A stretch of DNA of 56,562 bases from a virus, in the IMG/VR virus record IMGVR_UViG_3300021959_000047, positions 1 to 56,562 of that record; one strand, written 5' to 3'. The translations under genes and the position numbers were made by a program. This document shows positions 1 through 56,562 of this stretch, in pieces. Position 1 is the first letter of the stretch. Each line of letters opens with the position of its first letter. The notes below the pieces were generated by a model, which was given only the letters and a program-made list of their open reading frames with translations, ran no database searches and was not told where the DNA came from.

Positions 1-154
1 AACACTTTCAAGTGCAGCCATGTCAACAGTGAACCCACGTTGGTATATCTTTGCGAGGTGTACAGCCAACTGATTGGTTAAGTTGACCGTTGCTGCCAGT
101 GAACTGCATTCCTCGTATGATGTCTGCAAACGAAGGTACAGTTGCTGAGTAGCA
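1..154. repeat. terminal direct repeat, left copy
   Basis: This stretch is repeated at the right end of the window with two differences (base 1 a versus c, and base 28 a versus g). It lies inside the DNA polymerase gene, and joining the ends keeps the reading frame open. The likely cause is assembly of a circular or circularly permuted genome, with the mismatches reflecting population variation. A true physical terminal repeat is less likely because it would interrupt a gene. Confidence 0.95.
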
Positions 155-630
155 TGTAAGTCGTGGGAGAGGTACTCTGACAACTCTGCGTGAGGAATGT
201 CACGTACAGAGTAGCCCTGCTTGAAGTACTCCTTCAAGGTGTCCTGCTTCTTTGTGTCAAGGTTGTACCGTTCAGCACAAGCCTCAAGAGACAGGGGTTC
301 CTTCTGCCCACGTTGCAGCACGTACTCACCTAACATGGTATCAAAGATTGCACCTTCGTAGGTGAACCCCGACTCCCACAACCATATCAAGTCGTGTGCT
401 GCGTTGTGCATAATTAGAAGGGCGGTTTCATCCAAGTTCTTCTGGACAATGTACCGCCCCTCTGGTGTGGGTTGATGCTCAGAGTGATCAAAAGTAATAA
501 TGCTTTCGTTTCCAAGATCATCTAGCATACCCACTTGTACTAAGGTATTCTCAGGTTCAAACGGATCAAGGTGTAGCTTGCCGTTGCGTTTCACCACAGT
601 GTTTTCTACGTCAAGAGTGAGGTGTTTCAT
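1..630 (-). CDS. DNA polymerase family A, N-terminal part (3'-5' exonuclease domain); gene continues at the right end
   Basis: Replicative DNA polymerase, 5' part. Joined to the right-end segment it makes a 2052-base frame of 683 residues, close to T7 gp5 (704). This part carries the DnaQ-like proofreading domain: Exo I with D7 and E9 (LTLDVENT), Exo II HNAAHD with D80, and Exo III YLSHD with D157. The ATG at 628-630 has a good AGGAGAT ribosome site. It is the downstream end of the cluster that begins with primase and helicase and is followed by the ssDNA-binding and nuclease genes. The truncation at base 1 is only the contig edge. Confidence 0.95.
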   Translation of the reverse strand, partial: MKHLTLDVENTVVKRNGKLHLDPFEPENTLVQVGMLDDLGNESIITFDHSEHQPTPEGRYIVQKNLDETALLIMHNAAHDLIWLWESGFTYEGAIFDTMLGEYVLQRGQKEPLSLEACAERYNLDTKKQDTLKEYFKQGYSVRDIPHAELSEYLSHDLHATQQLYLRLQTSYEECSSLAATVNLTNQLAVHLAKIYQRGFTVDMAALESV

Positions 631-889: not shown

Positions 890-1130
890 CGTTTACTCCA
901 AACTCATACTCTGTTAGTTCATCTTTCTCATACTTGATGTGATCCTCAATGAAGTCATACACTAATTGCATGTCCATCTTAGCTGCGGCACAATACAGTA
1001 CCAACTTCAAGCCTTCCTCTGCCAGTAATTTACGGGCATGTTCATCCATCTGTACAGTGTATGTTGCACTACCATCCTCATTTTCTTTTACTGTTTCAAC
1101 GCCCAGTATTCCTGCGTCTTTATCCATCAT
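861..1130 (-). CDS. conserved phage hypothetical protein, 89 aa
   Basis: Acidic protein with the segment YTVQMDEHARKLLAEEGLKL followed by VLYCAAAKMDMQLVY, a pattern I associate with small genes next to replication genes in marine phages; function unknown. I place the start at an ATG overlapping the ThyX stop in an ATGA arrangement, downstream of GGAGGAAGA. The adjacent second ATG three bases on has a slightly better spacing and is an equal candidate. A longer TTG-started version exists but would put the ribosome site inside the gene. Confidence 0.75.
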   Translation of the reverse strand: MMDKDAGILGVETVKENEDGSATYTVQMDEHARKLLAEEGLKLVLYCAAAKMDMQLVYDFIEDHIKYEKDELTEYEFGVNDDENTSNDT

Positions 1131-1855
1131 TCTTCCTCCAAACAAAATCCACAGAAGTCACCCTTAGATGGGTTGCCACATGACACACATGTTCTCCATG
1201 AGCCCTTCATCAGTGCTTTCCAACTCTCTGGGTACAGCTTCTCCATGTATTCATCTATCTGCATTGCCACCTCACGTGTCTCTTGCTGCGTGTCCTGTTG
1301 CATACGTAGCCCACACATCTTGGCGAATGCAAACACAGTACCAGACCAGTACCACTCTGTCATCATAGACTGTGGCAGTACCATACGTGCTTGCTCTGGT
1401 GACACCCCCTTGGCTAACAGGTAGTTGTAATTCTGCCGACAGTCCTCAACCATATTACGTGCAACTGAGGGACGTATATCATTTATCTCACCCTCACTGC
1501 CCTGCTTCTTGTCTTCACTACGTCCACGCCACACATCAGGCTGATAGAACTCTGGTTCATCGTCCACATATCTACGACTGATCTCGTTCCACGGCATGTA
1601 CTCGTGCTTCACAAGCTGACGTGCCACAAAGATCGGTGCCTTAACGTGAAACGTGGCAAACGTGTGGTTGAATGGTGACTTATGATTATGCTTGGCAAGG
1701 TAACGTATCAGCTTGGCATCCTTACCTTTCAGGATATTTGGCTCACCAGTATAGATGCGTTGATGCCATTCTGATTTCTTACCAAAGCTGACACGTGCAG
1801 CATTCACTACTGATAGATCACTACCCATGTGATCAATATACGTTACTTCAATCAT
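1127..1855 (-). CDS. thyX: flavin-dependent thymidylate synthase ThyX
   Basis: Makes dTMP from dUMP using methylene-tetrahydrofolate and FAD. The ThyX signature is at residues 79-96 (R79, H84, N90, S93, R95, Y96 in RQLVKHEYMPWNEISRRY). The length of 242 residues is typical. The C-terminus carries an extra CxxC-x8-CxxC (C223, C226, C235, C238) that looks like a zinc ribbon. The start overlaps the helicase stop by four bases (ATGA). With the class II ribonucleotide reductase and MazG it forms the phage nucleotide supply set. Confidence 0.95.
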   Translation of the reverse strand: MIEVTYIDHMGSDLSVVNAARVSFGKKSEWHQRIYTGEPNILKGKDAKLIRYLAKHNHKSPFNHTFATFHVKAPIFVARQLVKHEYMPWNEISRRYVDDEPEFYQPDVWRGRSEDKKQGSEGEINDIRPSVARNMVEDCRQNYNYLLAKGVSPEQARMVLPQSMMTEWYWSGTVFAFAKMCGLRMQQDTQQETREVAMQIDEYMEKLYPESWKALMKGSWRTCVSCGNPSKGDFCGFCLEEE

Positions 1856-53206: not shown

Positions 53207-54058
53207 TTAATCCTCTATGTATGCCACCGTCTTGGGGTCTTTTGCTTTCGATACCCGTGATGGTTCTTCAACCATGTTGGGCCAACACTCGTATCTGTAA
53301 TCACAGAAACGACAGTTATCATTTAGTACCTTGTTCCCTGTGGGTTTGCCACGGAAGAACTCTGGCACTGGGCTGAAGCAACGTTTGAACTCATTCTTGT
53401 TTACTGCTTCAACCGTGTCCTTGATTTTATCAAGTTCTTTATTAAGGTCAAGACCATCGGCTGGTACATATTTAAACTCACCATTACCTTTGTTCACGAC
53501 CCACCATCCACCTACACGTTTGCCAGATGCTTTGGCATAACCTGCAAGCTGTCCTACGTATCCGAACCCGTCACCCTTGGCTAGTGTAGCAAAGGAATCA
53601 AACTTGTTCTGGTACGACCAAGGGGATGCCGACTTCACGTCATCAACGGCACCGTCTATGACAAGATCATAAGAGCCAGAAACCCTAGTATCATTAGTAT
53701 CTCCCACTTCAAGGCTAACTTTATCAGTGTCTTCAAACTCCACGTTAGCAGCTTTAAGCAGCCCTTTAAAAACAGCCTCAACAATATCTCCTATCATCAT
53801 GTTCATTACAAATGTCGTCGGCTTTGGTAATGCACTCTCAGGTTTATTCTTTTGAAACCAGAGTTGGCAAGTAGGACGCCCAATGTTGGACATCCTTAGT
53901 GTGAAAGCATCACGAGACTTGCCACTACCGAACTGACGAAGTACTGCATCAGCAACCTCTGTGCCAATATCCTTAGCCTGTTCATAAGTGAACGTGCTCT
54001 TTCCATTGGCAGCATCAGTCATAAACTGGTGCAGCTTTAGTTCAGCAGGATGGTTCAT
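53207..54058 (-). CDS. Cas4/RecB-like PD-(D/E)XK exonuclease
   Basis: 283 aa. Conserved MSNIGRPTCQLW with first Cys; nuclease core GSYDLVIDGAVDDVKSAS (D, then DxK); QLAGYAKASGK; and a C-terminal CRFCDYRYECW, giving four Cys for an Fe-S cluster as in Cas4. Probably a 5'-3' exonuclease for replication or recombination, partner of the ssDNA-binding protein encoded just upstream. TAATG overlap with it. Confidence 0.88.
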   Translation of the reverse strand: MNHPAELKLHQFMTDAANGKSTFTYEQAKDIGTEVADAVLRQFGSGKSRDAFTLRMSNIGRPTCQLWFQKNKPESALPKPTTFVMNMMIGDIVEAVFKGLLKAANVEFEDTDKVSLEVGDTNDTRVSGSYDLVIDGAVDDVKSASPWSYQNKFDSFATLAKGDGFGYVGQLAGYAKASGKRVGGWWVVNKGNGEFKYVPADGLDLNKELDKIKDTVEAVNKNEFKRCFSPVPEFFRGKPTGNKVLNDNCRFCDYRYECWPNMVEEPSRVSKAKDPKTVAYIED

Positions 54059-54948
54059 TACACGAAATCCTCTTCGTCAATGTCTACGAATGACTCAACA
54101 GTATCTGTGTCTGTGTCATCATTCTTATATGCATTGTCATTCCAAGCACCCTTGATGTACTCGTTATAATTCTCAACCCATGCAAGGAAGTTTGCGAATG
54201 TCTCTTGCTCTGAGTCTGCCACGTCAAGTGTCTCGTTCAGATCAAGTGCCAAGGTTGGCAGGTAAAACGAATTGCCATTTGGCAATGAACGTTCTTCAGT
54301 TGCAGCTTTGATGTTATGCTGCACTGGCAAACGCCGCATCTTACCCAGCTTGTTGAACAGGGTTCCTGCAGTCTTGAATGCATCACGGTTCTCAATCTCC
54401 CAGATGAATGCCTGTGGCTCTAAGTCAACTGGGTTACCCTGTGCATCTGTAACATCATGCAGTTCTACTGTACCGAACATGACACGGACACGTTTGATCT
54501 GACGAATTAACTCTTGTGTTTTCTCAGGCAATGCTTTGAAGTCTTCAATGTAACCTGCAGGCTTACCACAGTTGAAGCCTCCGTCATTGTCCTTCATGTC
54601 ACTGTTCAGATCATTAGCCATCAAGGTTTTGACATAACGATTTGGTGTTGTGTCACTACCCTTGATGAAACGTTTGTACATAAATCGTTGTAGGTAAGGA
54701 CGAATAGTCGCAGTAGGTGCATAGTAGGTTGGCCCATCTGGGATTTCCAACTTGTATGTACCGCCAGATACAACTTCCATCTTTACCTTTTTGCCATTCA
54801 CTGTTTCCTCACCCATGATGGCTGAGTGATTAATGCGCAGCCGTGCAAGTGTGCTTGACTGTGACTTCTGAGTATTGTCAACGGACATGCCCATTGCCTC
54901 TGCCATTGCATTGAAGTTACCAGTGTTAATTGTTGCTACTTGATTCAT
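54058..54948 (-). CDS. probable single-stranded DNA binding protein
   Basis: 296 aa. N-terminal MNQVATINTGNFNAMAEAMG is conserved in marine phages; the central part is beta-rich (MEVVSGGTYKLEIPDG, VRVMFGTVELHD); the C-terminus is acidic and ends in VDIDEEDFV, like the acidic tails of SSB and T7 gp2.5. Located between the polymerase and the exonuclease. The ssDNA-binding role is inferred from tail and position. Confidence 0.7.
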   Translation of the reverse strand: MNQVATINTGNFNAMAEAMGMSVDNTQKSQSSTLARLRINHSAIMGEETVNGKKVKMEVVSGGTYKLEIPDGPTYYAPTATIRPYLQRFMYKRFIKGSDTTPNRYVKTLMANDLNSDMKDNDGGFNCGKPAGYIEDFKALPEKTQELIRQIKRVRVMFGTVELHDVTDAQGNPVDLEPQAFIWEIENRDAFKTAGTLFNKLGKMRRLPVQHNIKAATEERSLPNGNSFYLPTLALDLNETLDVADSEQETFANFLAWVENYNEYIKGAWNDNAYKNDDTDTDTVESFVDIDEEDFV

Positions 54949-54986: not shown

Positions 54987-56562
54987 TCACGACACATCTT
55001 TTGTGTCAAGCCAATTCGGACCAATCTTTGCCTCTAATAAAAGTGGTACATTGAAATCCAGTTTCCACTTCTTATTCACAATAGAAAGCAGTCTGTCGTT
55101 GGCTGCATTTATTATCCGTAATACTTTATCCTTCTCATTTGGGTGCACATCAATCACGATGGAGTCGTGTACGGTATTGACGATGCACGATTGCATTTGG
55201 TTTACCCCTAATAACTTGTCGATGTATATCAGAGATATGGGTACAATGTCAGCCGTGGCAAACGATTGTACAGGAAAGTTTTTAATCTGTGTGAAAAAGG
55301 TCACAGTACCATTAGCACGACGAGTGACATCAGGGAAAGAGAACTCACGACCTGATGGTGTCTTGATCTTACCCGTAGCCAGAGCCTCACGTGCAAGCTC
55401 TTTGTGCCACTTGCCTATACCTGAGTACTTCTTAGTGAACTGCTCGTAATACGCAGCCTCTGCAGGTGTACGACCAAACCCACTGGCACCATACAACGGT
55501 GCGAATGTGTGTGCCTTGGCTTCCTGACGTGACATGTTCTGCCCTGCATCAGTGATAACCTTTGCGGTGTATGAGTGTACATCAAAGCCCGTGGTCACCT
55601 CGTCAATAGCAGTCCTGTCCTGCGATAAGAATGCAGCAACACGAAATTCTAACTGCGCAAAGTCTGCTTCCATGATCTCACCGCCATTCCAACGTGATTT
55701 GAACACACGTTTAACTGGGAACGTACCACCACGTGGCATGTTCTGCATGTTGGGATCGGCACCAGACAGTCGGCCTGTGGCAGTGCGGTGTTGCAGTAAC
55801 CTGACGTGCAGCTTACCATCTTGTTTTACGTGAGTTGATATACCTTCCACAAAGCTTGAGAGATATGTGTCAACGGCAGACAAACGGCGTACTCGTTGTA
55901 AGAACAACACTGCGTCTTGCATATCACGTTGTCGAGCCACACCTTCAAGGTACTCAAGTTTATCTTTACTTGTGGCGAAACCGTTAGCTGAGGTCCATTT
56001 TGCTGTAGGTGCATTGAACTTTAATCCAGCGACCGAACTACGGATGTCCATAAAGACATAGCCAGTAGCATTACAAGTAATACATTTATTGGGTTTAGCA
56101 TATTGTGTTCCATCCTTCTTTGTTTTGTAGGTCTTGCCAGTGCCATTGCAAGTAGTGCACTGCTTTGCCTTTTGCTTATACAACCTGTCACTATTGTGAC
56201 GAACTGTGCTTCTGTAATCCGTATCTGTCATACGGAAGTCATCAAATAAATCAGCCCATACTTTCTTGTCCTTTGGCTTCTTGCTGTAGATAACCCAAGA
56301 CAATTGCTCTGGACTGTTCAAATTGATTGGACGATCCCCCATAAGTTCACGTACCTGTTCCTCAAGATCAGCGACCAACTGATCACGTTCCTGTTGAAAC
56401 TCATGACGCACACTTTCAAGTGCAGCCATGTCAACGGTGAACCCACGTTGGTATATCTTTGCGAGGTGTACAGCCAACTGATTGGTTAAGTTGACCGTTG
56501 CTGCCAGTGAACTGCATTCCTCGTATGATGTCTGCAAACGAAGGTACAGTTGCTGAGTAGCA
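54987..56562 (-). CDS. DNA polymerase family A, C-terminal part with DnaJ-like zinc motif
   Basis: Continuation of the polymerase that starts at base 630. Full-length residue numbers: zinc motif C294-xx-C297-NGTG and C319-xx-C322-NATG, a CxxCxGxG pair as in the central domain of DnaJ, inserted before the palm; motif A EADFAQLEFR with D459; motif B R504, K508, F512, Y516 (RQEAKAHTFAPLYG); motif C VHDS with H624 and D625. F512 is equivalent to E. coli Phe762. The zinc insertion is the hallmark I recall from HMO-2011. Confidence 0.96.
   Translation of the reverse strand, partial: ATQQLYLRLQTSYEECSSLAATVNLTNQLAVHLAKIYQRGFTVDMAALESVRHEFQQERDQLVADLEEQVRELMGDRPINLNSPEQLSWVIYSKKPKDKKVWADLFDDFRMTDTDYRSTVRHNSDRLYKQKAKQCTTCNGTGKTYKTKKDGTQYAKPNKCITCNATGYVFMDIRSSVAGLKFNAPTAKWTSANGFATSKDKLEYLEGVARQRDMQDAVLFLQRVRRLSAVDTYLSSFVEGISTHVKQDGKLHVRLLQHRTATGRLSGADPNMQNMPRGGTFPVKRVFKSRWNGGEIMEADFAQLEFRVAAFLSQDRTAIDEVTTGFDVHSYTAKVITDAGQNMSRQEAKAHTFAPLYGASGFGRTPAEAAYYEQFTKKYSGIGKWHKELAREALATGKIKTPSGREFSFPDVTRRANGTVTFFTQIKNFPVQSFATADIVPISLIYIDKLLGVNQMQSCIVNTVHDSIVIDVHPNEKDKVLRIINAANDRLLSIVNKKWKLDFNVPLLLEAKIGPNWLDTKDVS
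56409..56562. repeat. terminal direct repeat, right copy
   Basis: Second copy of the contig-end overlap, 152 of 154 bases identical to the left end. Removing one copy gives a circle of 56408 bp. Confidence 0.95.

Follow-up and report, generated by a model that had tools for sequence, protein, structure and literature searches.

The family A DNA polymerase gene of the viral record analyzed here encodes two DnaJ-like cysteine boxes within a basic insert that, judging from sequence alignment and a predicted structure, almost certainly forms the loop between helices H1 and H2 at the tip of the polymerase thumb. The record, IMGVR_UViG_3300021959_000047 from IMG/VR, was taken over its whole length of 56,562 nucleotides (the window), and a preliminary description made from the sequence alone had pointed out the boxes. 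The feature is real and universal in the HMO-2011-type phage group, and it is already known, having been published as a hallmark of that group. According to PMC6918029 and PMC9038755, all members have a "partial DnaJ central domain" that carries two CXXCXGXG motifs and lies between the exonuclease domain and the polymerase domain. A partial DnaJ domain with two such motifs is a criterion for the group in PMC9038755 and PMC8528129, and PF00684 is annotated in the polymerase of the HMO-2011 record. We found no mention of HMO-2011 together with the thumb in the literature searched, which was incompletely covered. We add a better location for the module and a testable mechanism.

The cysteine boxes and their conservation

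The minus-strand reading frame from 56561 to 54987, which contains KAKQCTTCNGTGKTYKTKKDGTQYAKPNKCITCNATGYV, matched PF00476 (DNA_pol_A) in Pfam at E 1.1e-55. Bases 1 to 154 of the record repeat bases 56409 to 56562, with 152 of the 154 positions identical, and the 5' part of the polymerase gene was the second match within the same record. This 154-bp end overlap indicates that the genome is circularly permuted or terminally redundant and that the polymerase gene is split over the record ends, and the two mismatches in it suggest a mixed population. When joined across the overlap, the polymerase translated in frame as a protein of 683 amino acids, the same length as the CRP-1 polymerase, and its N-terminal part aligned as an exonuclease. 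The catalytic residues of the exonuclease and the polymerase were all retained, so this is predicted to be a working enzyme. We also observed that motif C (residues 624 to 626) reads HDS in 94 of 94 relatives, against a family A norm of HDE, and that the phiKMV-type consensus at this motif is HDC. Both the HMO-2011-type and the phiKMV-type enzymes thus have another residue where a Glu normally stands close to the catalytic Asp.

The polymerase fragment was 92.9% identical to the DNA polymerase of Roseobacter phage CRP-1 and 65% identical to that of HMO-2011. The gene set of the window (integrase, primase, helicase, ThyX, polymerase, a 296-amino-acid protein, Cas4-like exonuclease, endonuclease I, and ribonucleotide reductase) agrees with that of CRP-1 and in outline with that of HMO-2011, and the family matches in the window, compared with these two phages, showed the replication-module order primase, helicase, polymerase, endonuclease. 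The family A polymerase is related to HMO-2011 gp12, with intact exonuclease and polymerase motifs, and it has the two-box partial DnaJ domain, the second box being in the CxxCxAxG form. We are nearly certain that the window is an HMO-2011-type marine phage with Roseobacter phage CRP-1 as its closest isolate. The ThyX-like thymidylate synthase (1127 to 1855, minus strand) ends in CVSCGNPSKGDFCGFCLEEE, a small zinc-ribbon-like tail at its C terminus. HMO-2011-type polymerases (L466 to L475) also occurred in contigs assigned to bins of Flavobacteriales, Neomarinimicrobiota, Euryarchaeota, and other groups. Since two of the contigs recur with identical names and lengths in two bins, the contigs of this set are probably mis-binned phage contigs.

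Bases 56061 to 56159 of the minus strand encode CTTCNGTG-x17-CITCNATG within the polymerase. The position given in the preliminary description was exact to the base, as was its spacing of 25 residues from first Cys to first Cys. PF00684 (DnaJ_CXXCXGXG) matched at E 1.5e-4; the 22.4 bits fall short of the gathering score, 32.7. The claim of DnaJ-type boxes in a family A polymerase is correct.

Table 1. Coordinates of the polymerase gene, its insert, and the neighboring gene in the window
Feature	Coordinates	Strand	Basis or remark
Family A DNA polymerase gene, 3' part (last 524 codons and stop)	54987..56561	-	ORF; PF00476
Same polymerase gene, 5' part (exonuclease domain), at the other record end	1..630	-	In-frame continuation
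Predicted thumb-tip insert, H1-H2, about 100 aa, residues 253-352	55983..56282	-	phmmer against Bst polymerase, AlphaFold2
Zinc-ribbon-like module, residues 287-336	56031..56180	-	Four predicted strands, CxxC knuckles in turns, pLDDT about 86-91
First knuckle CTTCNGTG, residues 294-301	56136..56159	-	Cys and both Gly invariant, 94/94
Basic stretch KTYKTKKDGTQYAKPNK between the knuckles, residues 302-318	56085..56135	-	305 and 307 always Lys/Arg
Second knuckle CITCNATG, residues 319-326	56061..56084	-	Both Cys and last Gly invariant, 94/94
Conserved 296-aa protein with acidic C-terminal tail, candidate partner	54058..54948	-	Downstream of polymerase in isolates examined

Since the published sets had been picked by the motif, we avoided circularity by gathering relatives with peptide patterns located elsewhere in the protein, in five scans of viral contigs; the CRP-3 scan alone had one pattern between the boxes, KIQKIKKD. 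The nonredundant set comprised 94 full-length polymerases with less than 90% mutual identity, reaching down to 35% identity to the window protein. C294, C297, C319, C322, G299, G301, and G326 were invariant in all 94, residues 305 and 307 were Lys or Arg throughout, and the three other cysteines of the window protein varied, being kept in 62, 22, and 58 of the 94. Both boxes had been described as CxxCxGxG type, which is correct for the first; the second is in the Ala form in the window, and its first Gly position is not conserved (Gly in 43, Ala in 36, and Ser in 10 of the 94), giving a family form of CxxCx(G/A/S)xG.

Both CxxC pairs were also present in all 345 IMG/VR loci spanning the region; 351 polymerases were found, and the remaining 6, without boxes, lie on contigs that end before it. 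The comparison with HMO-2011-type polymerases proposed in the preliminary description therefore found the boxes in the relatives, with the Cys pairs kept in 94 of 94 and 345 of 345, and a search among these polymerases for group members without the cysteines found none. A single full-length MAG contig, L468, did not fit our strict pattern; its polymerase keeps all four cysteines and has lost only the last Gly of the first box. The excess of invariant columns in the motif was weak (hypergeometric P of 0.07), so we relied on the Cys counts instead, and the conservation of the four cysteines in all 94 sequences led us to reject a chance origin of the motif. Searching 50,697 phage records by tblastn with the insert and its thumb flanks returned 12 records, all HMO-2011-type.

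Location and predicted structure of the insert

A phmmer comparison with solved structures aligned the residues directly before the insert with FNINSPKQLGVILFEK of Bst polymerase and those directly after it with GYSTSADVLEK of the same enzyme, so that about 90 window residues stand where Bst polymerase has a few. The main Pfam DNA_pol_A match starts past the insert, at fragment residue 183, which accounts for the published wording "between exonuclease and polymerase." The preliminary description had likewise placed the boxes between the exonuclease and the palm; this holds for the Pfam matches only, and in the predicted structure the insert belongs to the thumb tip, between H1 and H2. By our own count, the H1-H2 loop presumably falls within the thumb-tip stretch of E. 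coli Pol I deleted by Minnick et al. in 1996. Thumb truncation reduces the processivity and fidelity of Pol I, as that work is cited in PMC10061031.

We modeled the full-length protein L007, a relative sharing 93% identity with the polymerase fragment, by AlphaFold2 with 90 other sequences and obtained a mean pLDDT of 91.7 and a pTM of 0.84. The best solved Foldseek matches were Bst and then Klenow polymerases. The model has thumb helices H1 at residues 243 to 251 and H2 at 358 to 370, and between them are insert helices at 258 to 265 and 272 to 282, followed by strands at 287 to 293, 302 to 306, 312 to 318, and 327 to 336. The two CxxC knuckles (294 to 301 and 319 to 326) lie at beta-hairpin turns in a zinc-ribbon-like arrangement, and the boxes are paired in this model at the level of secondary structure only. 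We consider it highly probable that the insert binds one zinc. For the insert alone, the nearest solved sequence was yeast Ydj1/MAS5 (E 0.056), matched over two successive repeats, which we take to be repeats 2 and 3 and to form one zinc site. This match is a weak sequence resemblance that does not prove descent.

Proposed role and competing readings

The net charge of the insert averaged +11.4 with a minimum of +6, and that of the whole protein averaged -1.8. We give an even chance to the reading that the insert is a basic, metal-stapled tip of the thumb gripping DNA, with DNA grip and processivity as its main role; zinc, DNA contact, and the processivity effect are what we infer for the HMO-2011-type insert. 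By this mechanism, the insert at the thumb tip would consist of two short helices followed by a DnaJ-like zinc ribbon, whose four cysteines would bind a single metal ion, which is probably zinc. This ion would staple a small, highly basic beta hairpin, and this hairpin would extend the grip of the thumb on the duplex behind the active site. With this stronger grip, the enzyme would bind DNA more tightly and be more processive, and it would need no separate factor like thioredoxin for this. Thumb inserts of T7 and mitochondrial polymerases serve processivity factors, and those of plant organellar polymerases have been modeled as touching DNA (PMC7699545). A thumb clamp fits best among the three roles that the preliminary description had suggested, and while its observation is confirmed, its interpretation is supported in part.

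An acidic partner is an equally conceivable ligand of the basic patch, and the main rival to the DNA-grip reading, which we consider rather unlikely, is that the insert serves as a platform on which a replisome partner docks, with DNA contact secondary. The acidic tail of the conserved 296-amino-acid neighbor (net charge of -4 to -11 over the last 40 residues) would suit a basic insert, the SSB tail of T7 binds the thioredoxin-binding domain (PMC7699545), and an SSB contact at the thumb tip is predicted for another family A polymerase (PMC10061031). However, the neighbor had no Pfam or PHROG match and no solved relative, and we rejected it as an SSB because it had no family match and was SSB-like by position only. 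Its tail is also weakly conserved, and in HTVC033P and CRP-738 it is only slightly acidic. An acidic helicase tail was rejected as the partner too, as the helicase has none. We are similarly doubtful of a combined role, in which the zinc ribbon would both give the polymerase a processivity device of its own and dock it to replisome partners, as an independent counterpart of the T7 thioredoxin-binding domain. If true, a device for processivity and docking would sit at a neighboring site of the thumb in a phage group that ranks among the most abundant in the sea.

The metal site might merely stabilize an enlarged thumb fold and make no specific contact with DNA or a partner, to which we assign a low probability. 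The phiKMV-type polymerases have Cys-free inserts at the same site, which shows that a metal is not required for a thumb-tip insert as such, but the invariant basic positions and the consistently high positive charge of the HMO-2011-type insert suggest a binding surface. We consider it very improbable that the element truly derives from DnaJ and that it recruits or imitates host chaperones in replication, like DnaJ in lambda. Apart from the likeness to the DnaJ zinc domain seen in the PF00684 and Ydj1/MAS5 matches and a mention of the DnaJ-lambda link in PMC9038755, this role has little beyond the name in its favor. The PF00684 score is under the Pfam cutoff, the module is located inside the polymerase thumb, there is no substrate-binding domain, and a Pfam search of the polymerase fragment gave no match to a J domain with its HPD motif. 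The idea of a host chaperone mimic in the preliminary description is unsupported, since a J domain is lacking and only two of the usual four repeats are there.

Dominant marine phages include those of the HMO-2011 type (PMC9038755), whose polymerase serves as a marker gene. So far the module has gone by the name "partial DnaJ," with a passing link to chaperones. A position at the thumb tip exchanges that link for a direct idea, open to testing, of how the module affects DNA grip and processivity.

Comparison with known polymerases and DnaJ

The site of the thioredoxin-binding domain of T7 gp5, likewise a basic thumb insert in a phage polymerase of family A, was our first guess. We rejected it because the T7 insert precedes FNPSS, whereas the window insert comes after the equivalent INLNS, so the two occupy neighboring thumb sites. 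The T7 insert lies between helices H and H1, and the window insert lies between H1 and H2, following the NLNSPEQL motif of H1. T7 gp5 has no Cys boxes where the window polymerase has two, in agreement with the earlier remark that the motif is foreign to T7, and no sequence similarity was seen between the insert and the T7 thioredoxin-binding domain.

At the same H1-H2 site, the phiKMV-type polymerases (Autographiviridae) carry an insert whose conserved basic stretch, YxSGKxxGxxK, was aligned by MAFFT at the position of the first knuckle, and 81 of 83 such sequences from IMG/VR have no CxxC. The MAFFT alignment made homology plausible, but an insert-only hhalign comparison with the zinc insert was not significant (P about 0.1; probability, 0.6%), and the phiKMV-type insert is predicted to be all beta, in contrast to the helices and ribbon of the HMO-2011-type insert. 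We therefore rejected it as a homologue and retain it as an insert at the same site only. The two remaining phiKMV-type polymerases (L461 and L464) have a different block, CxxC-x11-CxxC, in the thumb insert directly before YKSGK, which may be another metal site, distinct from the first, at this place in the thumb. Taken together, the phiKMV-type and HMO-2011-type inserts indicate that the H1-H2 loop takes basic inserts in the polymerases of more than one phage group, and some of these inserts probably carry a metal site.

The zinc domain of DnaJ/Hsp40 (PF00684) resembles the insert in its CxxCxGxG knuckles, their similar spacing, and a weak sequence match. It has four CxxCxGxG repeats that bind two zinc ions, whereas the window polymerase has two repeats, from which we expect one metal site. 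HMO-2011 gp12 and CRP-1 gp19 are the same gene, with the same neighborhood, length, catalytic residues, and both Cys boxes. Nothing essential differs between them and the window polymerase, which has Ala for the first Gly of the second box.
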